Source of the DNA: Opitutaceae bacterium
GTDB taxonomy: Bacteria > Verrucomicrobiota > Verrucomicrobiia > Opitutales > Opitutaceae
Length of the DNA: 64,000 bases
Assembly: GCA_018402455.1 (NCBI GenBank)
Contig: JAGYIG010000001.1
Span: 1 to 64,000 of the forward strand
Reading direction: 5' to 3'
The translations under genes and the position numbers were made by a program. Position 1 is the first letter of the stretch. Every line of letters begins with the position of its first letter. A model generated the notes under the pieces. That model worked only from the letters and a program-made list of their open reading frames with translations, ran no database searches and was not told where the DNA came from. Shown in pieces: positions 19,252 to 32,194 of this stretch.

Positions 19252-20091
19252 GTGCCGCTTGTTCAATGCACCTTGCCGCTACCATTGCTTTACGAATCAC
19301 ACTGCCACACCCCGCTCTGCCATCATGCTCAGGGGGAACCGCCCGAATACGCCGAGGCCGCCGTGGCGGCGGGCTTGAAGGGAATTATTTTTACCTGTCA
19401 CTGCCCGCTGCCAGATGAGCATAGCGCGTGGGTCCGCATGAGCCCCGGCGAATACGAGACCTACCACGCCATGATCGCGGCGACGCGCGAGGTGTTCGCG
19501 GACCAGTTGGACGTGCGTGCGGGCCTGGAAAGTGATTACTTTCCCGGAGTGGAGCCTTGGCTCGAAGAGCTGCATGCCAAGGTGCCACTCAATCATGTGC
19601 TGGGCTCGGTCCACCCTCAGGTGCCCGAATACCAGGACGCCTATTTCAACGGAGATGCATTCGCTTTCCAGCAGACTTATTTCGACCACCTGGCTCAAGC
19701 GGCCGAGACGGGGCTCTTTGATACGCTTGCCCATCCCGATCTGGTGAAAAATCTGTTCCCCGAACACTGGCGGTTTGACCTTATTGAGCCTTACGTCGCC
19801 CAAGCCTTGGATCGGATCGCGGCAACGGGGGTGGCCATGGAGCTCAACACCAGTGGTCGCCAAAAAACCATCCCGGAGATGAACCCCAGCCCCTCCATGC
19901 TGAGGATGATGCACGAGCGCGGGATTCCGGTGGTGCTGGGGGCTGATGCTCACGTGCCACGCCGAGTGGCAGAAGGGTATTCCGACGCCCTCGAAACCCT
20001 GCGCCAAGTAGGCTTCACCGAAATCAGTTACTTCCTGAACCGCGAGCGGCAGACCGTCCCGCTGGAAGATGCCCTCAACTCTCTAACCTAA
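19252..20091 (+). CDS. hisK: PHP-family histidinol-phosphatase
   Basis: The protein of about 279 residues has the PHP metal-binding motifs YESHCHTPLCHHA at the N-terminus, TCHCPLPD, LGSVHPQ, DTLAHPDLVK and the C-terminal VLGADAHVPRRV. This is the HisJ/HisK type that removes phosphate from histidinol phosphate in histidine synthesis, although related PHP proteins exist. There is no ATG near the conserved start. A GTG at 19252, preceded by a G-rich stretch, gives MPLVQCTLPLPLLYESHCH; a TTG at 19273 is the alternative. Its TAA stop overlaps the left arm of an inverted-repeat element. It is divergent from pdxH. Confidence 0.82.
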   Translation: MPLVQCTLPLPLLYESHCHTPLCHHAQGEPPEYAEAAVAAGLKGIIFTCHCPLPDEHSAWVRMSPGEYETYHAMIAATREVFADQLDVRAGLESDYFPGVEPWLEELHAKVPLNHVLGSVHPQVPEYQDAYFNGDAFAFQQTYFDHLAQAAETGLFDTLAHPDLVKNLFPEHWRFDLIEPYVAQALDRIAATGVAMELNTSGRQKTIPEMNPSPSMLRMMHERGIPVVLGADAHVPRRVAEGYSDALETLRQVGFTEISYFLNRERQTVPLEDALNSLT

Positions 20092-20185
20092 GGGGTCAGG
20101 CCGTTACTTGTTAATTCCTGTTGAAATCCCGCGATTTTTCCTCGGCCAACTGACCAAAAATTAACAACTAACGGCCTGACCCCTT
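20090..20185. repeat. 96-bp inverted-repeat element (MITE/REPIN-like)
   Basis: Two 25-base arms (20090-20114 and 20161-20185) are inverted copies with one mismatch, enclosing 46 bases. Each outer end is AAGGGGTCAGGCCGTTA. The left end forms part of the hisK stop codon and the right end lies five bases before the rlmN start, so the element makes up practically the whole gap. Terminal GGGGTCAG-type ends are, as I recall, seen beside REP-associated tyrosine transposases, so this may be a non-autonomous derivative; that link is inference. Confidence 0.8.
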
Positions 20186-20190
20186 CTCCG

Positions 20191-21294
20191 ATGTCTGCTG
20201 CACTCCTATCTCTGCTTGGTCTCACCCGGGGTGAACTGTGCGCGTTGGTCGAGGGGTGGGGGTTTAAACCTGTTCACGGCGGCAAGGTTTGGCGGCATAT
20301 CTTTTTGGAGGGCCGCACGGACTGGGAATCGATTGATGCGATTCCGGCGACGTTGGTGGATCGTCTCCATCAAGCGACTACGGTTGGGCGGTTGCCCATC
20401 ACCCGCGAAACCCATTCGACGGACGGGTTTACGCGCAAGTATCTCCTCGGGCTGAAGGACGGTCACCAAATCGAAACCGTGCTGATGCGCTATTCGGGCC
20501 GGGTCACTGCCTGTGTGAGTTCGCAGGTGGGGTGTGCGATGGGGTGCGTCTTCTGTGCCACGGGTCAGATGGGCTACACGCGTCATCTGACCACCGCGGA
20601 GATCGTGGCTCAGGCTTGGCATGTGGACCAGATTTTGCGGGCAACCGCCCCGGAGGTCCCGGTCCTGGCCGAAGTCGACCACGATTCCCCTCATCACCGT
20701 CACGAGCGGCTCCGAAACATTGTGCTGATGGGGATGGGCGAGCCGTTGCACAACTATGATGCGGTGATCAAGGCGACACAGATTCTACGCGAGCCGGGCG
20801 GTTTGGCGTTGGGGGCCAAGAAAATCACGCTGAGCACGGTCGGGGTGGTACCGGGGATCATTCGTTTGGCGGATGAGCGCCAACCGATCTACCTGGCGGT
20901 GTCGCTGCACGCCGCGAATCAGGAGCAACGGGCGGCGATCGTGCCGGTGGCAAAAAAATGGCCGCTGGATGAACTCATGGGGGCTTGCGCCTATTATGCG
21001 GAGAAGATGCAGCGCCGGATCTTCTTTGAGTGGACCCTGATTGAGGGGGAAAACGACCGTCCGGAGGACGCCCATGCCGTGGGTGAACTGCTGCAACGCG
21101 TGCCCGGTCAGGTGAACCTGATCCCCTTGAACCCCACCACCGGATACGGGGGCCAGCCCAGCGACAACGCGGCGGCCAAACGGTTTCAATCGATTCTGGC
21201 CGACTACGGGCTGCCCAGCACGGTCCGCCAGCGACGGGGCATCGACATCGCCGCCGGGTGCGGGCAGCTGGCGACCTCGGATGACTCCGGGTGA
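20191..21294 (+). CDS. rlmN: 23S rRNA (adenine2503-C2)-methyltransferase / tRNA A37 methyltransferase
   Basis: The 367-residue radical-SAM enzyme methylates A2503 of 23S rRNA and A37 of some tRNAs. The radical-SAM cysteines are Cys115, Cys119 and Cys122 (CAMGCVFC). Family motifs LMGMGEPLHNYD, KITLSTVGVVPGI and VNLIPLNP are present. A C-terminal cysteine (DIAAGCGQL) corresponds to the methyl-carrying cysteine. A short insert rich in histidine and acid residues (about 150-172) precedes the GMGEP motif. Its leader is the inverted-repeat element, so translation could be affected by that hairpin. Confidence 0.95.
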   Translation: MSAALLSLLGLTRGELCALVEGWGFKPVHGGKVWRHIFLEGRTDWESIDAIPATLVDRLHQATTVGRLPITRETHSTDGFTRKYLLGLKDGHQIETVLMRYSGRVTACVSSQVGCAMGCVFCATGQMGYTRHLTTAEIVAQAWHVDQILRATAPEVPVLAEVDHDSPHHRHERLRNIVLMGMGEPLHNYDAVIKATQILREPGGLALGAKKITLSTVGVVPGIIRLADERQPIYLAVSLHAANQEQRAAIVPVAKKWPLDELMGACAYYAEKMQRRIFFEWTLIEGENDRPEDAHAVGELLQRVPGQVNLIPLNPTTGYGGQPSDNAAAKRFQSILADYGLPSTVRQRRGIDIAAGCGQLATSDDSG

Positions 21295-21368
21295 AACGGA
21301 GCCATCCGGCCCCGCGCCCCACCCACGCTCGCGGAGCTACCCCGCCGGATAGAGCCGAGCGACCAAGC

Positions 21369-22424
21369 TCACGGGCCGGCGCGGCGACCCCTGACCGCCG
21401 CGGCGAGGGTATCGAGCACTGGCAGGGTTTTTTCCCACGCCAGGCAGGCGTCGGTAATGCTGCGCCCGTAGACCAGGGGGTCCGTATCCAGTGATTGGCT
21501 ACCGCCGATCAGGTGACTTTCCAGCATGACCCCCGCGATGGTGGCATCGCCGCTCCGGATCTGTTCGCCCAATTCGTCAGCCACCAGGGGTTGGCGTTCG
21601 GCGTCCTTGCCGCTGTTGGCGTGACTGCAGTCCACCATGACAAAGGGCGGCAGATTCTGAGCGTTCAGCAGTTGCCGCGCCTCCATAATGTGGGCAGCCG
21701 AAAAGTTGGGCCCATCAGACCCCCCGCGGAGCACGAGGTGGGTCTCGGGATTTCCCGAGGTGCCCATGATGGCGGGTGCGCCTTCTCTGGTCAGGGAGGG
21801 GAACCAGTGGGGCTGGGCGGCGGAGCGGATCGCGTCGATGGCGACTTGGAGGTTGCCGTCGGTCCGGTTCTTGAATCCAACCGGCATCGACAGCCCCGAG
21901 GCCAATTCGCGGTGCACCTGACTCTCAACGGTGCGCGCGCCGATGGCCCCCCAGCTGATGGCGTCGGCGTAGAATTGTCCGAGGGTGGTGTCGAGGAACT
22001 CGGTGGCGATGGGCAAGCCTTGGCCGGCGATGTCAACCAGCAGTTGTCGTCCGCGGCGCAGGCCTTGGTTGATCTGGTAGGAGCCGTCTCGTTCGGGGTC
22101 GTTGATCAGGCCCTTCCATCCGACCACGGTGCGGGGTTTTTCAAAGTAGACCCGCATGACCACCAACAGATCGGTGGTGTGCTGGACGGCGGCCACCTTG
22201 AGCAGCTTGGCGTAGTCGAGGGCAGCAGCCGGATCATGAATCGAGCAGGGACCAACGATGACGAGCAGGCGGTCGTCTTCCCCGCGCATGATGCGGGTGA
22301 TCGATTGGCGGGCGTCGGCCACTTCGTCAGCGAGGGCGTCGGGCAGGGGGATCTCCTCGGCGAGCAGGCCGGGGGCGATCAGGGGTTTGGTGGCGCGGAT
22401 GCGTAAATCAGCGGTTTGGGACAT
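21369..22424 (-). CDS. aroF: 3-deoxy-7-phosphoheptulonate synthase (type I DAHP synthase)
   Basis: The 351-residue enzyme joins phosphoenolpyruvate and erythrose 4-phosphate in the first step of the shikimate pathway. Typical AroF/G/H motifs are VGPCSIHDPAAALDYA, MRVYFEKPRTVVGWKG, GARTVESQVHRELASGLSMP, RGGSDGPNF and DCSHANSGKD. The start at MSQTADLRIRATKPL matches family length. The isozyme class (Phe-, Tyr- or Trp-sensitive) cannot be told from sequence, so the symbol is generic. It converges with rlmN. Confidence 0.95.
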   Translation of the reverse strand: MSQTADLRIRATKPLIAPGLLAEEIPLPDALADEVADARQSITRIMRGEDDRLLVIVGPCSIHDPAAALDYAKLLKVAAVQHTTDLLVVMRVYFEKPRTVVGWKGLINDPERDGSYQINQGLRRGRQLLVDIAGQGLPIATEFLDTTLGQFYADAISWGAIGARTVESQVHRELASGLSMPVGFKNRTDGNLQVAIDAIRSAAQPHWFPSLTREGAPAIMGTSGNPETHLVLRGGSDGPNFSAAHIMEARQLLNAQNLPPFVMVDCSHANSGKDAERQPLVADELGEQIRSGDATIAGVMLESHLIGGSQSLDTDPLVYGRSITDACLAWEKTLPVLDTLAAAVRGRRAGP

Positions 22425-22531
22425 GAGCAATTTGCGAACGTGAAAGGCGGAGTTGCGCTTGGCAAGGAGGCGAATCCGTCGCCCGCCCACGCTCGGTTTG
22501 GTGCGGCCGGAAGCGGCTACCCTGCCACGTG

Positions 22532-23881
22532 CTAGGGCGCAGTCAGGCGCTCGCGGGCTTGGCGGACCCAGTCGGTCTCCGTCAGCTCAGGTAGGGGCGT
22601 ATCGACGCCGATTTTTTGGCGCCGGGCGGCCAGCGTCAGGTGGGCCAGGGCAGCAGCCGAGGTCGAGTCGGGGTCAACCAAGGGTTGGGGCAGGTCGGCG
22701 AGCTGCTCGCGGGGCAACACCGATTTTTCGACCAGGAAGGCCGACAAGGACGCCCCAAGAGTATCGATCCAAGTGAGCGGCCGGGGGGCGGGCTCGAAGG
22801 GCAGGCCGGGGCCTTCCTGGCATTCAAAATACGTGCGGAGGTGCTGGTGAAGGTCGCTGAGGACCTGGTCGGCGTTGCCGGGGGTCCACCGCACTTCGAA
22901 CGTCTTGCGCTCCCGGAAGCCCTTGATCTCCCACAGCCGCAGGGAAAGGTGAAAATCTCCACCCCCTTCTCGCAAGTCACCGGTGACGACATAGTCGATG
23001 GGGGAGCCGGAGGTATCGATCAACTGGCGGATATTGTCGGCCGTCCAAGCGGCGGGGAAGAGCATATAGTGCTGCTGTCCCAGCATACCAACCGCGGTCA
23101 GGGTGGTGTATTGGGGGGAGAAGTAGAGTGAATCGGCCAGCCACAGCGGGATCCCGCGGGTGAGGCGACCGAGGGCCTCCTCGGGTTGCGGGCAGAGGCG
23201 CTCTAGGTCGTCGTGCTCGGGCAGGGTGAGTTGGGCGAAGGCGACGGTCTTGGCCTTGGGATTCTTCTGCGGCAGGAGCCCGGGGAGATCCTCGATGCCG
23301 TAGGCCCAGATGGGTTTGCTGATGGTCACGAGGTTAACACTGGTGGCCGGGCCGGAGCTCTTGTTGTGCTTGTTGGACACCATGATCTCGCCGATGGCGT
23401 TGGAAAACCCCCACAGTCGGTCCTCCAACTCGGGTTTTTTGAGGGCGAACAGGAGATCGAGCACATGTTGCGCGGCCTCGGGGTTGCGGAGGGCCAGATA
23501 AGCCTGGAGCAGGTTGATGCCGGTGGCCGGGCCATGGCGCTCGGCGTCGTAGCGGGGGGCTATGAGCTCGGGAATCGCGGCAACGTGACCGGTTGAGCCG
23601 AGATCTCCGGAAATCCGCACCAGCACATCGGGCCGTTCTCCCGCTGGCGACGAGAGGATTTCCTCATAAATTTCTCGGGCGCCATCGATATTGCGCAGCT
23701 CGAGCTGTTCGAACGCGGCCTCCAAGCGAGGGGCCACGGGACCGGGGTCCGGCGCACTTGCCGGGGACGGAGGAGGGGGGCTGGTCTGCTCCGGGCCCGG
23801 GACAGGCGGGGAGCCTTGTGGCGGGTTGGACGAAACGGGCCGGGGAGTGGATTTGCCTAGCAGGCGGTCGAAGAATCCCAT
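22532..23881 (-). CDS. Conserved hypothetical protein with TPR-like N-half
   Basis: The protein has about 449 residues starting MGFFDRLLGKST. A proline-rich linker (about 15-50) precedes a helical repeat region (LEAAFEQLELRNIDGAREIYEEIL, then INLLQAYLALRNPEAAQHVLDLLFAL) that resembles TPR-type solenoids. The second half (about 200-440) is a globular mixed domain with no recognised motif. The leading GFFDRLLGK is common to several bacterial soluble helper proteins. Function unknown. It lies 107 bases upstream of the DAHP synthase start on the same strand. Confidence 0.7.
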   Translation of the reverse strand: MGFFDRLLGKSTPRPVSSNPPQGSPPVPGPEQTSPPPPSPASAPDPGPVAPRLEAAFEQLELRNIDGAREIYEEILSSPAGERPDVLVRISGDLGSTGHVAAIPELIAPRYDAERHGPATGINLLQAYLALRNPEAAQHVLDLLFALKKPELEDRLWGFSNAIGEIMVSNKHNKSSGPATSVNLVTISKPIWAYGIEDLPGLLPQKNPKAKTVAFAQLTLPEHDDLERLCPQPEEALGRLTRGIPLWLADSLYFSPQYTTLTAVGMLGQQHYMLFPAAWTADNIRQLIDTSGSPIDYVVTGDLREGGGDFHLSLRLWEIKGFRERKTFEVRWTPGNADQVLSDLHQHLRTYFECQEGPGLPFEPAPRPLTWIDTLGASLSAFLVEKSVLPREQLADLPQPLVDPDSTSAAALAHLTLAARRQKIGVDTPLPELTETDWVRQARERLTAP

Positions 23882-23940
23882 GACGAGGTTGAAACCCACC
23901 CGACCGGCCCAAGGCGAGTGGTTTTAGAGATCTGGGCTCA

Positions 23941-24096
23941 TTAACTGGCCTCCCAGCCGGACGGTGGCTCGAGCGGGGGGTGGGGCGCGGGCCGCTCGCG
24001 GGGGGCCGGATCATCACAAAAAATCACCGCCGCCGCGATATCGTGGGAGCAAATACAACAAACGGAGAGCCAAAAGGCGTTTAAAAGGCGGGACAT
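23941..24096 (-). CDS. Possible small protein, 51 residues
   Basis: The 428-base gap between 23881 and miaB holds one small reading frame that starts MSRLLNAFWLSVCCICSHD and continues into a proline-rich tail. The N-terminal half is hydrophobic enough for a signal peptide or single membrane span. There is no clear Shine-Dalgarno sequence and no recognised homologue, so this may be chance. The rest of the gap (24097-24309) is AT-rich around 24110-24155 and probably contains promoters for the flanking genes. Confidence 0.25.
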   Translation of the reverse strand: MSRLLNAFWLSVCCICSHDIAAAVIFCDDPAPRERPAPHPPLEPPSGWEAS

Positions 24097-24309
24097 AGTG
24101 GGAGTGAAACCATGCAAATTGCCTGCCACTTTTATGAAAATTATCAATTTAAACTGTCGGCCGACCCCCTTCGAGCCGCGCCCGGCCGGCCCCGGCCCAC
24201 CGTTCGACGGACCGGAAACCACGTCAGCGGACCCGGAGCGCCGCGCACGCGGCGGGGCTTTCCCGTTTGACGCTACTCCCCGTCCCTCTAGGCAGGAACC
24301 TTACGAGTC

Positions 24310-25674
24310 ATGAACCGCGTCTACATCAAGACCTACGGCTGCCAAATGAACGTCCGCGACAGTGAAGCGGTGGCGGCGATGCTGCGCGGACGTGGTTACC
24401 GCATTGTCGACTCCGAACAGGACTGTGACATCATGCTCCTGAACACCTGTAGCGTGCGCGATGCGGCGGAACAAAAAGCCCTCGGCAAGGCAACCTACGT
24501 CTCCCACCGCAAGAAAAAGAACCCGGACTTTGTTTTGGGGATTCTCGGCTGCATGGCGCAGAACCGGGGCGAGACGATTTTGGCCCAGCTGCCGGATGTG
24601 GACCTGATTGTGGGCACCCAGAAATTTCACCAAGTGCCGGATTACTTGGACAACCTCGCCGCCGCCCGCGCCGCCGGAGTGCCGGTGGGCCAATCCATCG
24701 TGGACATCGACGAAGAGGCGGACTCCCAGAACACCATTCGCGATCACCTCGAAACGGATGAGCCGCAGGTCAGTGCGTTCGTTTCGATTCAACAGGGCTG
24801 CAACATGTCATGCCACTTCTGTATCGTGCCAAAAACCCGCGGCGACGAGCGCTCCCGGCCCATGGAGGACATCGTCACGGAATGCCGCAATCTGGCTGCT
24901 CGAGGCGTCAAGGAAGTCACCTTGTTGGGGCAGATCGTGACCAGCTATGGCCGCCGCGACTACCGGCACACCGACGGTATTTCACCCTTTGTGCAGTTGA
25001 TTGAAAAGGTGCACGAGATCGAGGGCATCGAACGTATCCGCTTCACCTCGCCCCATCCGCGAGGCTTCAAGCAGGACCTGGTGGAAGCCTATGGCCGCCT
25101 GCCCAAACTCATGCCCTACGTGCACCTGCCCATGCAAAGTGGCAGCAACCGCATCCTGCGCGCGATGAACCGCCCGTATTCTCGCGAACGCTACCGGGAG
25201 ATCGTGGATGCGCTGCGCGAAGGGACGCCGGACATGACGTTTTCGACCGACGTGATCGTGGGCTTCCCCGGGGAAACCGAGGAGGACTTTGCCGACACCA
25301 AGGAGCTGTTTCGCGCCTGCAATTTCGACATGGCCTACATCTTCAAATACTCCATCCGCACCGGCACGGTCGCGGAGGAGCTGGACGATCAAGTGTCGGA
25401 TCAAGTGAAGGAACGTCGCAACCAGGAGTTGTTGGACATCCTCCGGGAGAACTCCGGCCGACGGAACCGAAGTCTGGTCGGCACGCAGCAACAGGTGTTG
25501 ATCGAGGGTCCGGACAAAAAAGGCCTGCACTTCACCGGGCGCACCCCGGGCAACCGCGTGGTGATTTTGGATGCGGACCCCCGCTTGGTCGGGCAGATCG
25601 TGACCGTCGACATCAGCCGTGCCACCGTCAGCACCCTCTACGGAGAATTGGTATTGGAGGGAGTCGCGGGGTAG
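24310..25674 (+). CDS. miaB: tRNA-2-methylthio-N6-dimethylallyladenosine synthase
   Basis: The 454-residue methylthiotransferase modifies A37 of tRNAs reading UNN codons. The N-terminal UPF0004 domain carries the first cluster's cysteines (YGCQMNVRDSE at Cys11, LLNTCSVRD, LGCMAQ). The radical-SAM cluster cysteines are Cys164, Cys168 and Cys171 (GCNMSCHFCIVPKTRG). A C-terminal TRAM domain (about 380-450) completes the normal architecture. The spacing pattern fits MiaB rather than MtaB or RimO. Confidence 0.96.
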   Translation: MNRVYIKTYGCQMNVRDSEAVAAMLRGRGYRIVDSEQDCDIMLLNTCSVRDAAEQKALGKATYVSHRKKKNPDFVLGILGCMAQNRGETILAQLPDVDLIVGTQKFHQVPDYLDNLAAARAAGVPVGQSIVDIDEEADSQNTIRDHLETDEPQVSAFVSIQQGCNMSCHFCIVPKTRGDERSRPMEDIVTECRNLAARGVKEVTLLGQIVTSYGRRDYRHTDGISPFVQLIEKVHEIEGIERIRFTSPHPRGFKQDLVEAYGRLPKLMPYVHLPMQSGSNRILRAMNRPYSRERYREIVDALREGTPDMTFSTDVIVGFPGETEEDFADTKELFRACNFDMAYIFKYSIRTGTVAEELDDQVSDQVKERRNQELLDILRENSGRRNRSLVGTQQQVLIEGPDKKGLHFTGRTPGNRVVILDADPRLVGQIVTVDISRATVSTLYGELVLEGVAG

Positions 25675-25713
25675 GGTCTTGGCCTCCCCGTCCCGGCCAT
25701 CCGCCATCCGCCA

Positions 25714-26183
25714 TCTTTCTTCTTCCTCTTTATCCTTCTCTTTCTCTTCGTCCTACAATGCGTCGCCGTTTCGATCACGAAAACCTGCAGGTTTACCAGT
25801 ATGCGGTGAAGTTCTGTGCTTGGGTGACACCTCTTCTGGAATCCATTCCCAGCAAACTGTCGGCGAAAGATCAATTGGATCGGGCATCTACCAGCATCGT
25901 TCTCAACCTCGCGGAAGGAAACGGAAAGAGGACGTATCCAGATCGTTCCCGATATTTCGATATTGCTCGGGGATCGGGAGTCGAATGTGCCGCTTGCCTG
26001 GATGTGTTGGTGGCAAGAAATGCCATTCAGACTGAGCTCGCCGAAGGGGGGAAATCCCAGTTCATTGAGATTGTCTCCATGATTGGCGGACTGATGGCTC
26101 GATTTGCGGGCGAAGGCCGAGTGGAAGAGGAGCAGTCAGGTTACGGTGAGGAGAAAGAGAAGGATAAAGAATAAGGAGAAAGA
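25714..26183. mobile_element. IVS-like cassette: four-helix-bundle gene between 36-bp terminal inverted repeats
   Basis: The left arm (25714-25749) is pyrimidine-rich and the right arm (26148-26183) purine-rich. They are inverted copies matching at 32 of 36 positions, with a 20-base perfect core containing CTTTATCCTTCTC. The enclosed 470-bp unit contains only the four-helix-bundle gene, whose start is 9 bases inside the left arm and whose stop lies within the right arm. In 23S rRNA, intervening sequences with similar proteins are bounded by inverted repeats that form a stem. Here the unit lies outside rRNA, between miaB and a membrane-protein gene. Confidence 0.7.
25758..26174 (+). CDS. Four-helix-bundle protein (23S rRNA IVS / S23 family)
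   Basis: The 138-residue protein belongs to the four-helix-bundle family found in 23S rRNA intervening sequences and related to the Avd accessory protein of diversity-generating retroelements. Hallmarks are the start FDHENLQVYQYAVKF, the helix with RASTSIVLNLAEGNGK and ARGSGVECAACLDVL. It probably forms a small oligomer that binds nucleic acid; the exact role of the family is unknown. The charged C-terminal tail (GEEKEKDKE) and the stop codon are encoded by the right inverted repeat. This is evidence that gene and repeat travel as one unit. Confidence 0.88.
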   Translation: MRRRFDHENLQVYQYAVKFCAWVTPLLESIPSKLSAKDQLDRASTSIVLNLAEGNGKRTYPDRSRYFDIARGSGVECAACLDVLVARNAIQTELAEGGKSQFIEIVSMIGGLMARFAGEGRVEEEQSGYGEEKEKDKE

Positions 26184-26225
26184 CTCGCGCCGCGGTTTCT
26201 CTTTCTTCGGTATATCGACCCACCC

Positions 26226-26783
26226 ATGACGCTCTTCTCCGCCACCCTTCTCACCGGACTTCTCGTTCTCGCCCTTGGGGTGATGGTGACACTCCCGAAC
26301 TCGGCGGTGGTGACATCCATCAAACGCTTTCCGCGGTCGCGACGTATGGCCTACCTGCTGTTCTCGGTGGGGGCGGTTTGGTTCTTGTATCGGATCGCGC
26401 ACCTCTCGGCGGCCGACTTCGGAGATTTCAAAAAACCGTTGTTCATCTTCTTTGCCCTGGTGGCCATCGCGGCGTTCAAATTCGTGCCCGACTTTCTGGC
26501 GGTGCGGGGGGCGTGCATTCTCGTGCTGTTGGGAGCCTCTCACCTGCTCGAGCCGGGCTACATGGTTTGGGAATATGGTGAACTGACCGACCTCGGTCGG
26601 ATTTATTGGTATAAAATCGCGGTCTTCATCGCCGTGGCATTGGCGATCTATCTGGGAGCATCGCCGTTTCGGCTGCGCGACTTTTTGGAATGGCTTTATC
26701 GCAAACCCGGGCGCGCGCAGATTTTCGGGGGAGGGCTCGCGCTCTACGCTCTGCTGATCACGGGCGCGGCGTTCACTTACTAA
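26226..26783 (+). CDS. Small polytopic membrane protein
   Basis: The 185-residue hydrophobic protein has about five to six predicted membrane segments (roughly 5-22, 40-58, 66-86, 88-106, 128-146 and 162-180). Short basic loops (KRFPRSRR, YRKPGRA) lie between them. No known transporter or enzyme motif is seen. It ends 9 bases before gmk and is probably co-transcribed with it. The function is unknown. Confidence 0.72.
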   Translation: MTLFSATLLTGLLVLALGVMVTLPNSAVVTSIKRFPRSRRMAYLLFSVGAVWFLYRIAHLSAADFGDFKKPLFIFFALVAIAAFKFVPDFLAVRGACILVLLGASHLLEPGYMVWEYGELTDLGRIYWYKIAVFIAVALAIYLGASPFRLRDFLEWLYRKPGRAQIFGGGLALYALLITGAAFTY

Positions 26784-26792
26784 GTCCAAGCG

Positions 26793-27398
26793 ATGACGAA
26801 AGACGCTGCAAAAAAACCGGTTTTGCTGGTGTTGGCCGGCCCGGCGGGCTCAGGCAAAACCACCCTGTGCGAGCGGATGGTCGCCGAAGCCGATGACTTT
26901 TCCCGGGTGGTCACCAGCACCACCCGGGAACCCCGACCAAACGAAGTAAACGGGCGTGACTACCACTTTTTCTCCGCTGAGCAGTTCGACCAGAAAGTCG
27001 CGGAAGGCGCCTTTCTCGAGTGGGCCTGGGTGCATCGCAAAAATCGTTACGGCACCTTGGCTTCGTCCGTGCTGCAGCCCTTGGCCGAAGGGCAAAGCCT
27101 CATCATCAACGTGGACGTTCAGGGAGTGGAAAATTTCCGTCGCGCCGCGCGGGAAAACCCGTTGCTCGCCCGGCATATGGGCACCGTTTACATTGATGTG
27201 CCCATCCATGAGCTACAGGAGCGCTTGGCCGGTCGCGGCGAAACAGCCGAAGAGATCGCCCGCCGCATGGTCACGGCCGAAAAGGAGCAGCAGGAGCGGG
27301 AAAAATTTGATCACGTGATCACCAGCTCCAGCAAGGAGGCCGATTTTGCCGCCCTGCAACAAATCTGGCAGACTGTCGCAAAAGGGATCATTCCGTAA
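26793..27398 (+). CDS. gmk: Guanylate kinase
   Basis: The 201-residue enzyme phosphorylates GMP to GDP with ATP. The P-loop is GPAGSGKTTL (about residues 16-25). The GMP-binding segment STTREPRPNEVNGRDYHF and the FLEWAWVHRKNRYGT segment follow, as in the family. Lid-region residues (RLAGRGETAEEIARRM) are present. It lies directly upstream of the class II ribonucleotide reductase gene, another nucleotide-supply function, separated by 197 bases with putative NrdR sites. Confidence 0.95.
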   Translation: MTKDAAKKPVLLVLAGPAGSGKTTLCERMVAEADDFSRVVTSTTREPRPNEVNGRDYHFFSAEQFDQKVAEGAFLEWAWVHRKNRYGTLASSVLQPLAEGQSLIINVDVQGVENFRRAARENPLLARHMGTVYIDVPIHELQERLAGRGETAEEIARRMVTAEKEQQEREKFDHVITSSSKEADFAALQQIWQTVAKGIIP

Positions 27399-27509
27399 GG
27401 GGCTGCTATGCCAAAAGGCTCGGTTCCGCTTGAGCGGGGCTGATGGCGCCGCAAGCGAAAAAAAACGCGTCAAAACAAGATCTGCGCAAGGAACAGGTTT
27501 GCGCCGGTA

Positions 27510-27557
27510 GCACAATATGTTGGGGTGTTGTGCTCGTCGATACACTACGGGTGGTGT
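27510..27557 (+). promoter_or_regulatory. Tandem NrdR-box-like sites upstream of nrdJ
   Basis: Two imperfect 16-base sites resemble the NrdR consensus ACACWATATATWGTGT: GCACAATATGTTGGGG at 27510-27525 (12 of 16 by eye) and ACACTACGGGTGGTGT at 27542-27557 (about 11 of 16). They are separated by 16 bases, so equivalent positions are 32 bases or three helical turns apart, the spacing known for NrdR-controlled operators. They lie 39-86 bases before the nrdJ start. Each box alone is weak; the spacing is the main support. Confidence 0.6.
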
Positions 27558-27595
27558 CCGCGACCCTCCTACCTCTTTAGCTTCACGTTTTCGTC

Positions 27596-29719
27596 ATGTC
27601 CGCAACTTCCACGTCTTCCGCAACTTCCGTCTCCTCTTCCGCAGCCTCTGATCGTCCGAAACGTCACGGTGAGAATGGGCTGGAGGACTACATCGCGATC
27701 TCGCGTTATGCCCGCTATGATCCGGCGAAGCGGCGCCGGGAGTCTTGGTCCGAGGCGGTTGCCCGCGTGCGGGACATGCACCTCGGGCATTACGCGGAGA
27801 CGTCCTTGCGGGACGTGGCGGCTGAGGCCCTGCAAGCGGGTGAGATCGATGCCGCGGTGATCGCCAGGATGGGTGCGTTGAGTTCCTTGCATGAGGCGAT
27901 CAACGACGCGTTTGCGGCGGTGGAGCGAAAGCGGGTGTTGCCCTCGATGCGCAGCCTGCAGTTTGGCGGCGAGGCGATCCTCAAAAAGCACCCTCGAATC
28001 TACAACTGTGCCTTTCTTCACGTGGATCGGCTGGAGGCGTTCCGGGAGAGCCTTTACCTGCTGTTGTGTGGGTGTGGGGTGGGGTTTTCGGTCCAAACCC
28101 AGCACGTGGCCAAGCTGCCGGTGCTGGCGCCGGCGCCGGCGGACGATGCGCGCCGTTCGCTGCACGTCATTGCGGATACCATCGAAGGGTGGGCGGATGC
28201 GCTGCATGCCTTGATGGTGGCGGCGGTTGAGGGCCGGCGGGTGAAGTTTGATTTTTCCGAGATTCGGGCGGCGGGCGCGCCGTTGCGCACTTCGGGAGGC
28301 AAGGCCCCCGGGCCGGAACCACTGATGCACACCTTGGACAAGGTGGAGCATATCCTGCACGCCGCGGCGGGTCGCCAACTCAAGCCCATTGAGGCGTATG
28401 ACGTGTTGATGTGGGCGGCCAAGGCAGTGCTGTCCGGGGGCATTCGGCGGTCGGCCACGATTTGCCTCTTCTCGGCTCATGATGAGGAGATGGGTCAGGC
28501 CAAGACGGGCAACTGGTTCGCCACGCACCCTCAGCGGGCGGCCAGTAACAACTCGGCCGTAATCGTGCGCTCGCAGGCGACCCGGGCGCGGTTCGATCAT
28601 TTGTTTGAGGCTCAGAAACAGTTCGGGGAACCCGGGTTCTACTTTGTGGAGAACGCGGATTATGGGGCCAATCCCTGCGTGGAGATCGGACTGAATCCCA
28701 AGCTCAAACTCACCGGGGACACGATCGCGGCGTTGCGCAAGATGGGTCATAACGGCGGTCTGCGGGAAGGCGATGTGTTGTCGGGGGTGCAATTCTGCAA
28801 CCTGACCACCCTATCGGCGGCGGCGGCGGAAAGCCCCGCCCGCTTCTACGAGCTGTGCGCCCAGGCGGCGCTGATCGGCACCCTGCAGGCGGGCTACACC
28901 GACTTCTCCTACCTTTCCCCCGTCTCTCGGCTGATCACCCAGCGCGAAGCGTTGTTGGGCGTCTCCATCTGCGGAGTGCTGGACCGTCCCGACGTGCTGC
29001 TCGACGCCGACGTGCTGCGCACGGGGGCGGAGGTGGTGAAGGCGGTCAATCTTGTCGTGGCCCGGGCCATCGGCATCAACCCCGCCGCGCGCACCACCTG
29101 CGTGAAGCCGGAAGGCACCGCCAGTCTGTTGCTGGGGACGTCGAGTGGCCTGCACCCGCACCACGCGGTGCGGTATTTTCGCCGCGTGCAGTCCAACAAG
29201 CTGTGCCCGGTCTACAACCACTTCAAAAAGTCCAATCCCCACATGGTGGAGGAAAGTGTTTACGATCCGCACGGTCGCACCGAGGTCATCACCTTCCCGG
29301 TGGAAGGCCCGGAGTTTGGGATTTATCGCGATGACATCGATGCGATCACGCATCTCGACTACATTCGGCAGGTGCAGGTCAATTGGGTGCAGGCGGGTCG
29401 GCGGCACGAGGACCACTCCCCGGGACTGCACCACAACGTCTCCTGCACGGTCACGGTCCGCCCGGATGAATGGGATGCCGTGGCCGAGCGCATTTGGGCC
29501 AACCGGGATTCGTTCACGGGCATTGCGTTGCTGCAGGATGCCGGGGACAAGGCTTATGCGCAGGCTCCCCGGGAGGCCGTGGCCACGACGGCGGATATCC
29601 AGCGCTGGAACCAATTGGGCTACAATCCCGTGCGCTACACGGAGCTAATGGAGGACGAGGACATCACCGAATTGAAGCAGGTGATCGCCTGCGCGGGCGG
29701 GCAGTGCGACCTGCATTGA
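27596..29719 (+). CDS. nrdJ: Adenosylcobalamin-dependent (class II, monomeric) ribonucleotide reductase
   Basis: The 707-residue protein reduces ribonucleotides to deoxyribonucleotides using a cobalamin-generated thiyl radical, without oxygen requirement. It resembles the monomeric NrdJ/RTPR type: LLLCGCGVGFSVQ, then the NPCVEIGLNP motif with the radical cysteine Cys361 and Glu363, SSGLHPHHAVRYFRRVQ, and a C-terminal redox pair CAGGQC (Cys699, Cys704). The serine/threonine-rich first 18 residues look disordered. NCBI-style names sometimes call this family a fused protease/RTPR. The last 27 bases form the start of a 219-bp direct repeat. Confidence 0.93.
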   Translation: MSATSTSSATSVSSSAASDRPKRHGENGLEDYIAISRYARYDPAKRRRESWSEAVARVRDMHLGHYAETSLRDVAAEALQAGEIDAAVIARMGALSSLHEAINDAFAAVERKRVLPSMRSLQFGGEAILKKHPRIYNCAFLHVDRLEAFRESLYLLLCGCGVGFSVQTQHVAKLPVLAPAPADDARRSLHVIADTIEGWADALHALMVAAVEGRRVKFDFSEIRAAGAPLRTSGGKAPGPEPLMHTLDKVEHILHAAAGRQLKPIEAYDVLMWAAKAVLSGGIRRSATICLFSAHDEEMGQAKTGNWFATHPQRAASNNSAVIVRSQATRARFDHLFEAQKQFGEPGFYFVENADYGANPCVEIGLNPKLKLTGDTIAALRKMGHNGGLREGDVLSGVQFCNLTTLSAAAAESPARFYELCAQAALIGTLQAGYTDFSYLSPVSRLITQREALLGVSICGVLDRPDVLLDADVLRTGAEVVKAVNLVVARAIGINPAARTTCVKPEGTASLLLGTSSGLHPHHAVRYFRRVQSNKLCPVYNHFKKSNPHMVEESVYDPHGRTEVITFPVEGPEFGIYRDDIDAITHLDYIRQVQVNWVQAGRRHEDHSPGLHHNVSCTVTVRPDEWDAVAERIWANRDSFTGIALLQDAGDKAYAQAPREAVATTADIQRWNQLGYNPVRYTELMEDEDITELKQVIACAGGQCDLH

Positions 29720-29911
29720 TCCGGCACTCCCCCGCCCGTTCCGCTCCGCCGCGGGGACGTGGCCCGACCGGTCGCAGCAGCCCTTAACGGGTCAGGTTGC
29801 CTCCCGTGAGGCTTAGCCCCGTTACATCCAGCCAACCCGCCCGAGGGCGTTCGTCGCTCATGGTCGTGGTTCACATGACGTCTTCCAAGGTCAGTCCCGC
29901 GACATGGCGGG
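29693..29911. repeat. Direct repeat copy A (219 bp): nrdJ tail plus GH28 tail
   Basis: This copy matches 34589-34808 with six substitutions and one single-base indel, in the same orientation. It begins inside the last nine codons of nrdJ and continues through a minus-strand C-terminal piece of a GH28-type gene (stop codon TAA at 29784-29786). Identity ends sharply at 29911. Since nrdJ is intact here, this is the copy in the original nrdJ context. Confidence 0.9.
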
Positions 29912-30146
29912 GAATTGCTGGAGGCCAACCGCAGTGAGCGACGTCATCCAGATCCCCTTCCTCGAGGGTCTTGGCGATACCTCGTGAGTTCGTGCTTCCG
30001 TTCCGAGGATGGGTTCAGTGTTCCTCAAAGTCGCCAGCGAGGTTTGCCATCACCGTTGCCGACGTGGGCTTTTTAGATCGCCGCGTGCGGGAGACTTACT
30101 GGTCCGATTTCCACGGGTTCAGCTCTGCCCGGGCTGGCGGCCCTAC
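29912..30146. other. Non-coding gap before the AraC-type gene
   Basis: These 235 bases follow the end of repeat copy A. I see no coding frame with family resemblance, no hairpin with T-run and no repeat. The sequence probably contains the decayed end of the inserted segment and the transcript end of the AraC-type gene. Confidence 0.4.
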
Positions 30147-31031
30147 TCAGCGGAATTTACCCCGGGCGCCGGAGGGGGAATGGCCGGTGCGTTTCTTAAA
30201 AAAGCGGGAGAAGTAGAGGGGGTTTTCGAACCCGCACTCGGCGGCGATTGTCTGAACGGGGAGGGTGGTTTGCGCGAGCAGCTGGGTGGCCTTGCGCAGG
30301 CGCAATTCAAGCAGATAGGCAACCGGGGCCATGCCGACTTGCGCGGTGAAATGACGGCGGAAGGACGTGTGGCTGATGCCCTGTTCCCGGGCGAAGGCCC
30401 GACTGTCGAAGGGTTGGGCAATCGACTCCAGCATCCGGTCGCAGGCGCAACGGATGCGGGTCTGATGCCGCGACGTTGCCCGATCATCCGCGTGGGTTTG
30501 GAGATGCAATTGGACCAAAATTTCGAAGATCTTTGCCGCGATTCGTTCCCTGCAACCGTAGGACTCGCGGCGCGCCAAGTCGCACGCCTCGGTGAACAGA
30601 TACTGCATCTCAGGCTGCAGTCCGATAGGATGCACGGGCTCTCGGGGAGAAAAATGATGGCGGATGATGTTGCTGGCGTGGGGGCCGGTAAATCCGATCC
30701 ACCATTCATCCCAGCCGGTTGCTGGATTGGGGTGGTAGCGGTGCCGCACGCCGGGAAACAGGAGAAACATTGAACCGCGCTTGATTACCCGGGCGCCACT
30801 CGGTTCAGACCAAAATTCCCCCTCTCCCCCGGAAATGTAGATGACTTGATACTCATCGAGCACCCGCCCGGTATTCTGGTTCAGCGTGTAGCTTTCCGGG
30901 TGTTTAAAAGGCGGGTAGGGATGCCCGGGGGAAATTTTCGTGTAGCCGAGGTCGGTGGCGGTAATGCCCCAGTGCTCGAGTCCGGCATGGGGGGACAGGT
31001 AACGCTGGAAGGCTTGAAGTTGGCCGGACAT
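30147..31031 (-). CDS. AraC-family regulator of the rhamnose/sugar cassette
   Basis: The 294-residue protein has an N-terminal cupin (AraC-binding) domain, with SGGEGEFWSE and LLFPGVRHRYHP as typical cupin strands, and a C-terminal double helix-turn-helix (about 195-290) ending with VQTIAAECGFENPLYFSRFF. It is divergent from the rhaT-like gene with 119 bases between, so it likely activates that operon in response to a deoxysugar such as rhamnose or fucose. The inducer is inferred from neighbours only. Confidence 0.88.
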   Translation of the reverse strand: MSGQLQAFQRYLSPHAGLEHWGITATDLGYTKISPGHPYPPFKHPESYTLNQNTGRVLDEYQVIYISGGEGEFWSEPSGARVIKRGSMFLLFPGVRHRYHPNPATGWDEWWIGFTGPHASNIIRHHFSPREPVHPIGLQPEMQYLFTEACDLARRESYGCRERIAAKIFEILVQLHLQTHADDRATSRHQTRIRCACDRMLESIAQPFDSRAFAREQGISHTSFRRHFTAQVGMAPVAYLLELRLRKATQLLAQTTLPVQTIAAECGFENPLYFSRFFKKRTGHSPSGARGKFR

Positions 31032-31086
31032 GCGATGGGGCTAATTGGATATGGACAAAAAGTGCATGTTAAAGGTCACCCGGTCC

Positions 31087-31115
31087 ATTCCAATCAGTGC
31101 CTGTTCCGCTATAAC
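31087..31115 (+). promoter_or_regulatory. Possible activator-dependent promoter of the rhaT-like gene
   Basis: A good -10 hexamer TATAAC lies at 31110-31115, 36 bases before the start codon. The matching -35 position (ATTCCA, 31087-31092, 17-base spacing) fits the consensus poorly, as is usual for promoters that need an AraC-type activator. No AraC-binding direct repeat could be fixed. Confidence 0.3.
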
Positions 31116-31150
31116 TATACGCTCCCCCGTTTGACCCCAATATCCCTGCG

Positions 31151-32194
31151 ATGGTTGCCCTCGGCGTTTTGCTTCATCTCATCGGCGGTTTTGCCGCCGG
31201 TAGTTTTTATCTGCCCCTGAAGGGTATCCGGCAGTGGTCCTGGGAAAGTGGTTGGCTCTTCAACGGCTTCTTTTCCTGGATCGTGGCTCCGGTGGTGATC
31301 GGTGTCTTCACCGTGCCCCTGCTGGGGAGCACGCTGATGGACGCCCCCCCCATTGCGCTGTTCTGGACCTTTGTTTTTGGGGTGCTTTGGGGGATTGGTG
31401 GGCTGACGTTCGGATTATCGGTTCGTTACCTGGGCCTGTCTTTGGGCTACGCGGTGGTCCTCGGCTTCTGTGCGGCCTTTGGCACGCTGATCCCGGCGAT
31501 CCATGATGGCACCATCGGGGCGCTCCTCACCACCTTGCCGGGCTGGGTGGTGTTGGCTGGTATTGGGGTCTGTCTCTTGGGCATTGGGCTGTGTGGCTAT
31601 GCGGGTCACTTGAAAGAGGCGGGCCTGACGCGGGAGGAAGAGGAGAAGCAGGAGTTTCGTGTGGGCAAAGGACTGGTGGTGGCGGGTTTCTCCGGCGTTA
31701 TGAGCGCGTGCATGGCCTTCGCGTTTGCCGCCGGCAAACCCATTGCCGAAACGGCGGCCGAGAACGGCACCCAACCGATTTGGGTGAACAGCGCCGTGTT
31801 GGTGGTGATTCTCATCGGTGGTTTTGTGACCAACGCGGTCTGGTGTGGCTACCTGATGGTGCGCAACCAGAGCTGGCGGGACTTTACCAATACAAGCAGC
31901 CCGCTTTCTCGAAACTATGCCTTGGCGGCACTCGCGGGCGTCACCTGGTATCTACAGTTCATGTTCTACGGCATGGGTTCGACGAAGATGGGGGCGTATG
32001 ACTTCACCAGCTGGACCCTGCACATGTCCTTCATCATCATCACCAGCAACCTCTGGAGCCTCTACCTGCGGGAATGGCAGGGCGCGGGCAAACGCACCAC
32101 GGGTATTCTCGTGGCGGGCATCCTGGTCATCACGCTTTCCACCGTCCTGATTGGCTTGGGCAACTACCTCCAAGCGACGGCGGTTGCCTCCTGA
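31151..32194 (+). CDS. rhaT: L-rhamnose/proton symporter family transporter
   Basis: The 347-residue polytopic membrane protein has about ten membrane segments and RhaT-family landmarks: SFYLPLKGIRQWSWESGWL near the N-terminus, IGGLTFGLSVRYLGLSLGYAV, and FMFYGMGSTKMGAYDFTSW in the last third. RhaT imports L-rhamnose with a proton. It is followed 68 bases later by a sugar isomerase gene and is divergent from an AraC regulator, so the trio forms a small sugar-uptake operon. Substrate could be rhamnose or a similar deoxysugar. Confidence 0.9.
   Translation: MVALGVLLHLIGGFAAGSFYLPLKGIRQWSWESGWLFNGFFSWIVAPVVIGVFTVPLLGSTLMDAPPIALFWTFVFGVLWGIGGLTFGLSVRYLGLSLGYAVVLGFCAAFGTLIPAIHDGTIGALLTTLPGWVVLAGIGVCLLGIGLCGYAGHLKEAGLTREEEEKQEFRVGKGLVVAGFSGVMSACMAFAFAAGKPIAETAAENGTQPIWVNSAVLVVILIGGFVTNAVWCGYLMVRNQSWRDFTNTSSPLSRNYALAALAGVTWYLQFMFYGMGSTKMGAYDFTSWTLHMSFIIITSNLWSLYLREWQGAGKRTTGILVAGILVITLSTVLIGLGNYLQATAVAS

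Follow-up and report, generated by a model that had tools for sequence, protein, structure and literature searches.

The window, by which we mean the whole 64,000-nt stretch of DNA analysed, carries between two protein-coding genes a small gene enclosed by a pair of inverted arms (Table 1). The nearest named relatives of the genome were Opitutae and Opitutaceae records, and judged by these matches it probably belongs to Opitutaceae. A repeat search returned the arms as two 36-nt segments, complementary at 32 of 36 positions (89%) and spaced by 398 nt, which reproduces the inverted repeat described in an earlier note on this DNA. Its claim that the right arm encodes the end of the protein was also borne out, since that arm contains the stop codon TAA (26172-26174) and the codons for the final residues of the EEKEKDKE tail. 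The arm score of the gene was 28, compared with 13.5 for the 99th percentile of dinucleotide shuffles of its clade.

Table 1. Features of the array-flanked gene and its neighbours (window coordinates).
Feature	Position	Strand	Description
Upstream flank gene	24310..25674	+	Putative miaB (name from the earlier note)
Heptamer array	25696..25715	+	GCCATCC, 2.9 copies (TRF); directly 5' of the left arm
Left arm	25714..25749	+	Pyrimidine-rich degenerate hexamer array, consensus TCTTTC
Four-helix-bundle gene	25758..26174	+	PF05635/TIGR02436; 138 aa; clade with 6-nt units
Right arm	26148..26183	+	Left arm inverted; carries the last codons and stop of the gene
Downstream flank gene	26226..26783	+	185 aa; without Pfam match

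The arm array was reported by TRF with a period of 6, 5.7 copies and 75% matches, and our own period call for the arms was also 6 (z6 4.7, z7 2.3); the 7-nt unit of STRR, the cyanobacterial heptanucleotide arrays, was not found in them. Orthologous left arms were recovered from relatives' loci alongside the left arm of the window. When the RNA of 25690-26210 was folded, a check that the earlier note had proposed, the two arms were base-paired to each other (z -2.84, -194.1 kcal/mol), and 2 of 100 shuffles did equally well or better. We did not find promoter or terminator motifs in 25600-26300. At this site hexamer and heptamer units meet, the GCCATCC array (25696-25715) abutting the hexamer arm.

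The encoded protein

The window gene matched PF05635 (E 4.4e-21, 75.5 bits; curated cut-off 33.8) and TIGR02436 (E 1.1e-17, 64.2 bits; curated cut-off 24). PF05635 was the only Pfam match of the gene between the arms, and no transposase, such as an insertion sequence or RAYT would carry, was found there. The AlphaFold2 model (mean pLDDT 83.4) has four helices and a poorly ordered tail that is partly encoded by the right arm. Its best matches in PDB were Xcc0516 (2gsc) and BT_0352 (2rld), followed more weakly by Avd (4dwl, 8ub7), with 14-15% identity in the fold alignment. That the family includes Avd, as had been claimed from the letters alone, agrees with this match and with the homology mentioned in PMC10053308. 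A five-fold assembly of the family is known from the title of the Xcc0516 paper cited in the same article (PMC10053308), and the title of 8ub7 places Avd in the ribonucleoprotein of diversity-generating retroelements (DGR). Purifying selection acts on the protein: the median pN/pS was 0.16 in 27 orthologue pairs that are 80% identical or more, with saturation of synonymous sites in many of these pairs. We know of no established function for the PF05635 family except that of Avd.

Matches to PF05635 were present in 78 of the 115 genomes sampled in the phylum, and in 71 of them exceeded the curated cut-off. The window genome has five such genes over the cut-off, only one of which, that of the window, belongs to the clade described below as the window's.

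Inverted arms across the gene family

After removal of duplicates, short flanks and partial matches, 183 of 214 genes were retained, and a single branch of the protein tree (support 100) divides them into the window's clade (91 genes) and a sister clade (92). Inverted flanking arms exceeding the 99th percentile of dinucleotide shuffles were found in 78/91 and 64/92 genes, respectively, and in 0/86 and 0/92 when the same test was applied 500 nt away; 13/91 and 28/92 genes had no arms above the threshold. The start of the right arm precedes the stop codon in 65 of the 75 scored loci with 6-nt units and in 23/64 of the sister clade.

Similarity is greater between the two arms of one locus than between arms of different loci. 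Across 99 loci (7 with short flanks, L117 and 6 duplicates having been left out), own arm pairs scored 22.0 on average and cross pairs 12.1, which none of 10000 permutations equalled; the own pair was the strict best in 27/99 rows and among the top five in 47/99. The same holds among copies within a genome: own arms scored 15.2 against 8.0 for those of other copies in G133 (10 copies; 0/10000 permutations), 16.3 against 7.9 in G160 (7 copies; 2/10000) and 15.0 against 7.0 in G157 (5 copies; 88/10000). Among loci at one site, the cluster that includes the window (33 loci) gave 24.6 for own and 19.9 for cross pairs (0/10000), with own pairs above the row mean in 25/33. The excess was weaker in a second cluster of 14 loci (22.8 and 20.5; 39/10000) and was not significant in a third of 5 loci (16.2 and 11.7; 761/10000). 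The stop triplet is mirrored in the left arm of 17 of the 33 loci with aligned cover, compared with 10/373 for same-phase neighbours, a test that carries supporting weight only, as the alignment itself is biased toward such matches; taken singly, stop positions were matched less often (76/99) than other arm positions (913/1019). The arms within a locus evolve in concert. The proposal that repeat and gene form one evolving unit is supported by the 78/91 genes with arms in the window's clade, by the own-pair results (strict best in 27/99, 0/10000 permutations) and by the occupied and empty plasmid sites described below.

Unit length follows the protein clade

Flank autocorrelation revealed that the arms are arrays of short units, a feature that had been overlooked when the arms themselves were correctly described. 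Using z of at least 4, a lag of 6 was found in 55/86 genes of the window's subfamily, and a lag of 7 in 35/97 other PF05635 genes, with periods of 8 in 8/97 and of 9 in 1/97. Gene bodies gave 0/183 at either lag, and far flanks 4/181 at lag 6 and 1/181 at lag 7. The genes of period 8, for instance L160 and L166, lie outside the window's subfamily.

For placement on the protein tree we used a looser call, by which the period was clear in 117/183 genes (71 six, 46 seven) and unclear in the remaining 66/183, which were not counted. The 117 genes require one change of period, on one branch (support 100) that holds 71/71 of the sixes and 0/46 of the sevens; a second tree program gave the same relation of clade and period. 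The relation is also seen in the noncoding left flank alone, where lag 6 was found in 47/91 genes of the window's clade vs 1/92 of the sister clade, and lag 7 in 39/92 of the sister clade vs 1/91 of the window's. Sequence 3' of the stop codon gave 32/91 vs 1/92 for lag 6, and 29/92 (sister) vs 2/91 (window's) for lag 7.

Host lineage fails to explain the period, because the window genome holds both classes (one gene called 6, four called 7), and because the 6-nt protein clade occurs together with 6-nt arms in loci labelled Planctomycetota (L079), Desulfohalobiaceae (L113) and Thiocystis (L116), two of these three labels being those of metagenome bins. Unit length, 6 or 7 nt, tracks the protein clade whatever the host. 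On the purine strand the 6-nt unit has the core ANGANN (A 0.94, G 0.92, A 0.92 over 69 loci, many of them orthologues). No 7-nt consensus was seen beyond letter make-up, its 3.33 bits being barely above the maximum of shuffled units (3.30).

History of the window site in Verrucomicrobiota

We find that insertions are old and vertically inherited, at sites that differ between lineages. Both flanks were common to 270/285 protein pairs at 70-80% identity and to 17/1874 at 50-60%; since pairs at 70-80% identity so often keep both flanks, movement must be rare. Thirty-three loci, including that of the window, have both flanks in common, and the window copy is thus one of vertical inheritance with losses rather than a recent hop.

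The comparison of occupied and empty sites that the earlier note had called for was run on the Opitutaceae. The downstream gene was matched in 39 genomes, and loci were obtained for 30 of these; two (L226 and L234) showed no upstream gene and were not counted. Among the 28 evaluable sites, the cassette is complete at 8, truncated at 1 and reduced to a lone right arm at 1, and 18 are empty, including that of one genome of the same genus. By eye, some of the empty gaps contain heptamer arrays without the gene, inverted in L213, L235 and L236 and single in L215, L220 and L224. In L211, also read by eye, the right arm stands alone between the flank genes, an apparent deletion remnant.

Other loci bear on how copies relate to each other. 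L160 and L166, from one genus and with 88% protein identity, are alike in DNA only across the gene and into the first part of the right array. Two copies lie 2.3 kb apart in one genome, the first sharing 32 identical left-arm bases with the copy in a relative that corresponds to the second (L203, L132). A candidate recent duplication in G112 (L018 and L035) was identical over all 3387 nt, and was removed as an assembly duplicate.

Plasmid loci and occupied and empty sites

In the arm count we used 14 of 40 matching plasmid records, from cyanobacteria, Azospirillum and Gemmatirosa. Ten of the 14 loci have inverted arms (score of at least 17); in the other four no inverted arms rise above background, and two of these four have same-direction arrays. 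In L248 and L251, read by eye, the arrays left and right of the gene share one orientation instead of being inverted. The only plasmid match of the window-clade protein was weak (40% identity over half the query). Neither clade was found in phages: the sister-clade protein had no phage match, and the window-clade alignment had no relative among viral contigs, where 32 stretches met a pattern and none was related.

Four sites in Nostoc, all with sister-clade cassettes, allowed occupied and empty states to be compared. The tidiest is that of L246 and L282, which align to the empty L276, L277, L278 and L280 with 91-92% identity outside gaps; the insert begins and ends no more than a few bases from the arrays (the left junction of L277 aligning less neatly), and the empty relatives are without arrays. 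The other three sites show further changes at the junctions. Compared with L272 and L273 (95%), the occupied L242 also lacks some tens of bases found in the empty sites; the insert of L279 extends about 11 and about 35 bases past the arrays relative to L280 (92%); and in L239, compared with L283 (85%), the arrays stand at the edges of the insert and the empty site contains roughly a dozen additional bases. Consistent target-site duplications were not found. That both states occur for sister-clade cassettes on Nostoc plasmids supports the view that repeat and gene evolve together; at the window site, where 33 loci have both flanks in common, the cassette is old and did not arrive by a recent hop.

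Arrays also occur there around DNA other than the gene. At the site of L242, L274 has gene-less arrays flanking other DNA. A four-helix gene that is whole in L246/L282 is split in L281 by a unit (941-1122, about 180 nt) that has inverted heptamer arrays close to its ends. A query comprising most of this unit and some gene sequence matched 92 places on 43 plasmids, and 26 plasmids had one place covered to at least 80%. Three more copies of this type (L284, L285, L286), read by eye, have the same array ends and different flanks. The right junction of the L281 type reads GATAA in all four copies read. Two plasmid loci of cyanobacteria (L238, L248) have the four-helix gene between cas6 and cas4 of a CRISPR locus, and in L239 the cassette lies between two ribonucleotide reductase genes and is missing in the Calothrix plasmid L283.

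Heptamer arrays and the gene found apart

We counted heptamer arrays in one 400-kb stretch from each of six genomes, and found 10 in G126, 14 in G218, 0 in G203, 12 in G114, 0 in G201 and 2 in G196. A strict coupling of gene and array per genome was looked for and not found: G114 has its 12 arrays (L287-L306) and no PF05635 match in the genome, and G203 has eight matches, one of them in its 400 kb, and no strong heptamer array there. Inverted partners, defined by a score of at least 14 within 700 nt, were seen for 3/10 arrays of G126 and 7/14 of G218, where the gene is present, vs 0/12 of G114, where it is absent (Fisher p 0.015), in a comparison that spans three Opitutaceae genomes and is too small to lean on, two of the three arrays of G126 being one pair counted twice and 3/36 arrays having reached 14 in a distant control.

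Comparison with rRNA intervening sequences and other known systems

The nearest known kind is the intervening sequence (IVS) of 23S rRNA with its S23p/IVP gene, to which the window cassette is alike in gene family and in having terminal inverted repeats around the gene, and unlike in place and array structure: it lies outside a 23S rRNA gene, between protein genes, and its arms are arrays, as are the 6- and 7-nt arms of the family (PMC4990558 for the IVS). The earlier note had gone further, suggesting a small mobile or RNA-processed element that had spread out of or into rRNA. Neither a link to rRNA nor a retention of the arms for pairing in the sense RNA was supported. No Rfam match, rRNA included, was obtained in 18 loci, L001 among them, and an rRNA origin was rejected on this ground; the window copy stands between protein genes. 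Among arm mismatches, sense G.U did not outnumber A.C beyond chance expectation of parity in either set (69 vs 68 in 75 genes; 83 vs 131 in 61 sister genes), which argues for copying at the DNA level or a constraint from the protein, not for a selected sense-RNA stem.

Tandem arrays of 7-nt units, many of them intergenic, have been described in cyanobacteria, in Xanthomonas (GGGAATC) and in Beggiatoaceae (TAACTGA); in contrast to these, the window's clade has 6-nt units. According to PMC4692102, the Xanthomonas heptamers are often inverted pairs (70 cases in Xcc). Those of Nostoc PCC 7120 are described as seldom paired and as missing from its plasmids, and the TAACTGA repeats as 169 direct sets and one indirect (PMC4692102, PMC4679880), which speaks against simply uniting these arrays with our cassettes; the same texts link heptamers to polymerase slippage as a proposed cause, and the terms "four helix" and "S23" are absent from the portions available. 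Among the titles and abstract openings of the open-access literature searched, none links the PF05635 family to tandem arrays.

REPINs and RAYTs resemble our cassettes in that scattered inverted repeats go with a protein family, a different repeat group lying next to each protein gene (PMC3116915). They differ in that RAYTs are tyrosine transposases, whereas the window protein is a four-helix bundle and its repeats are arranged in tandem. The Avd protein of diversity-generating retroelements has the same fold as the window protein (4dwl, 8ub7); among the ORFs read in 20000-32000 we saw no reverse transcriptase and no template or variable repeats.

Discussion

We consider it probable that the feature is an array-ended cassette, in which a PF05635 gene sits between inverted tandem arrays and the protein acts, presumably by binding, on its own repeats. 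Nucleic-acid binding by the PF05635 protein is likely by analogy, because of the five-fold assembly and of the place of Avd in the DGR ribonucleoprotein. The protein may bind the array in its DNA or its RNA form, with a protomer, or a fixed contact, for each unit. Nucleocapsid proteins make such a fixed contact per protomer. With it, one clade would keep 6 and the other 7, so that the geometry of the protein would set a "rule of six" or a "rule of seven" and hold both arms in one sequence class. Binding could protect, pair or help to move the cassette. Movement would be rare and would depend on an enzyme from outside the cassette, be it a nuclease, a transposase, a reverse transcriptase or host recombination; we recognised no cutting or joining enzyme in the cassette. 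The gene-less array elements would be non-autonomous derivatives. The window site holds an old copy, vertically inherited and often lost, with its protein under purifying selection. Several results weigh against this reading: the genes without arms above the threshold (13/91 and 28/92) or with an unclear period (66/183), the mismatch of gene and arrays in G114 and G203, the four plasmid loci that have no inverted arms, the weaker excess of own pairs in the two smaller site clusters, the missing heptamer consensus, the rarity of movement, the altered junctions at three of the four Nostoc sites, the want of a consistent target-site duplication, and the published pairing of the Nostoc PCC 7120 and TAACTGA repeats.

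Other explanations account for part of these data. The arrays could be ordinary simple repeats produced by slippage and made alike on both sides by template switching, with the gene a chance passenger, which we regard as unlikely. Heptamers have been tied to polymerase slippage in print (PMC4692102, PMC4679880), and three sampled genomes of Opitutaceae contain gene-less arrays, the gene itself being absent from one of the three; however, the empty relatives at the L246/L282 site are without arrays, and the period tracks the protein clade both within one genome and across phyla. The inverted partners of 10/24 arrays in the two genomes with the gene vs 0/12 in the one without point the same way, with a double-counted pair and few genomes. 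Quite unlikely, in our judgement, is an RNA-processing element like the rRNA IVS, whose arms would be kept so that the transcript folds into a stem cut by RNase III. It would agree with the pairing of the arms in the folded window RNA (z -2.84) and with the Coxiella IVS, whose 28-bp terminal stem is cut by RNase III in vitro (PMC4990558), but a stem does not require units of fixed length, 6 or 7 nt, in step with the protein clade, and both the arm mismatches (G.U 69 vs A.C 68 in 75 genes, 83 vs 131 in 61) and the absence of Rfam matches in 18 loci speak against it.

We hold it to be very improbable that the gene is a domesticated host gene with a function in the cell, its arrays regulating translation or mRNA stability. 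Purifying selection (median pN/pS 0.16), the 33 loci at one site, and a right arm that begins before the stop in 65/75 six-nt loci (23/64 in the sister clade) would all suit such a gene, but it is missing in many relatives (18/28 sites empty), its sites differ between lineages, and the sister clade is also on plasmids.

Returning to the array-ended cassette, the rule that joins protein clade and repeat length connects the PF05635 family with the published heptanucleotide arrays of bacteria. We suggest, tentatively and with some doubt, that the four-helix IVP proteins are repeat readers with a footprint of six or seven nucleotides, and that their arrays, including at least part of the cyanobacterial and Xanthomonas heptamers, may be the ends of unrecognised mobile DNA that these proteins build, pair or move, the gene-less arrays being its non-autonomous members. 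If the protein binds its own unit length, this would supply a class of repeat-ended mobile DNA with both protein and mechanism, and would make hypotheses on how rRNA intervening sequences arose testable.

Elsewhere in the window, the scan returned one other strong short-range hairpin, a 27-nt inverted repeat (AAGGGGTCAGGC...) at 20090-20116 and 20159-20185, which we take to resemble a repeat of the REP/RAYT type.
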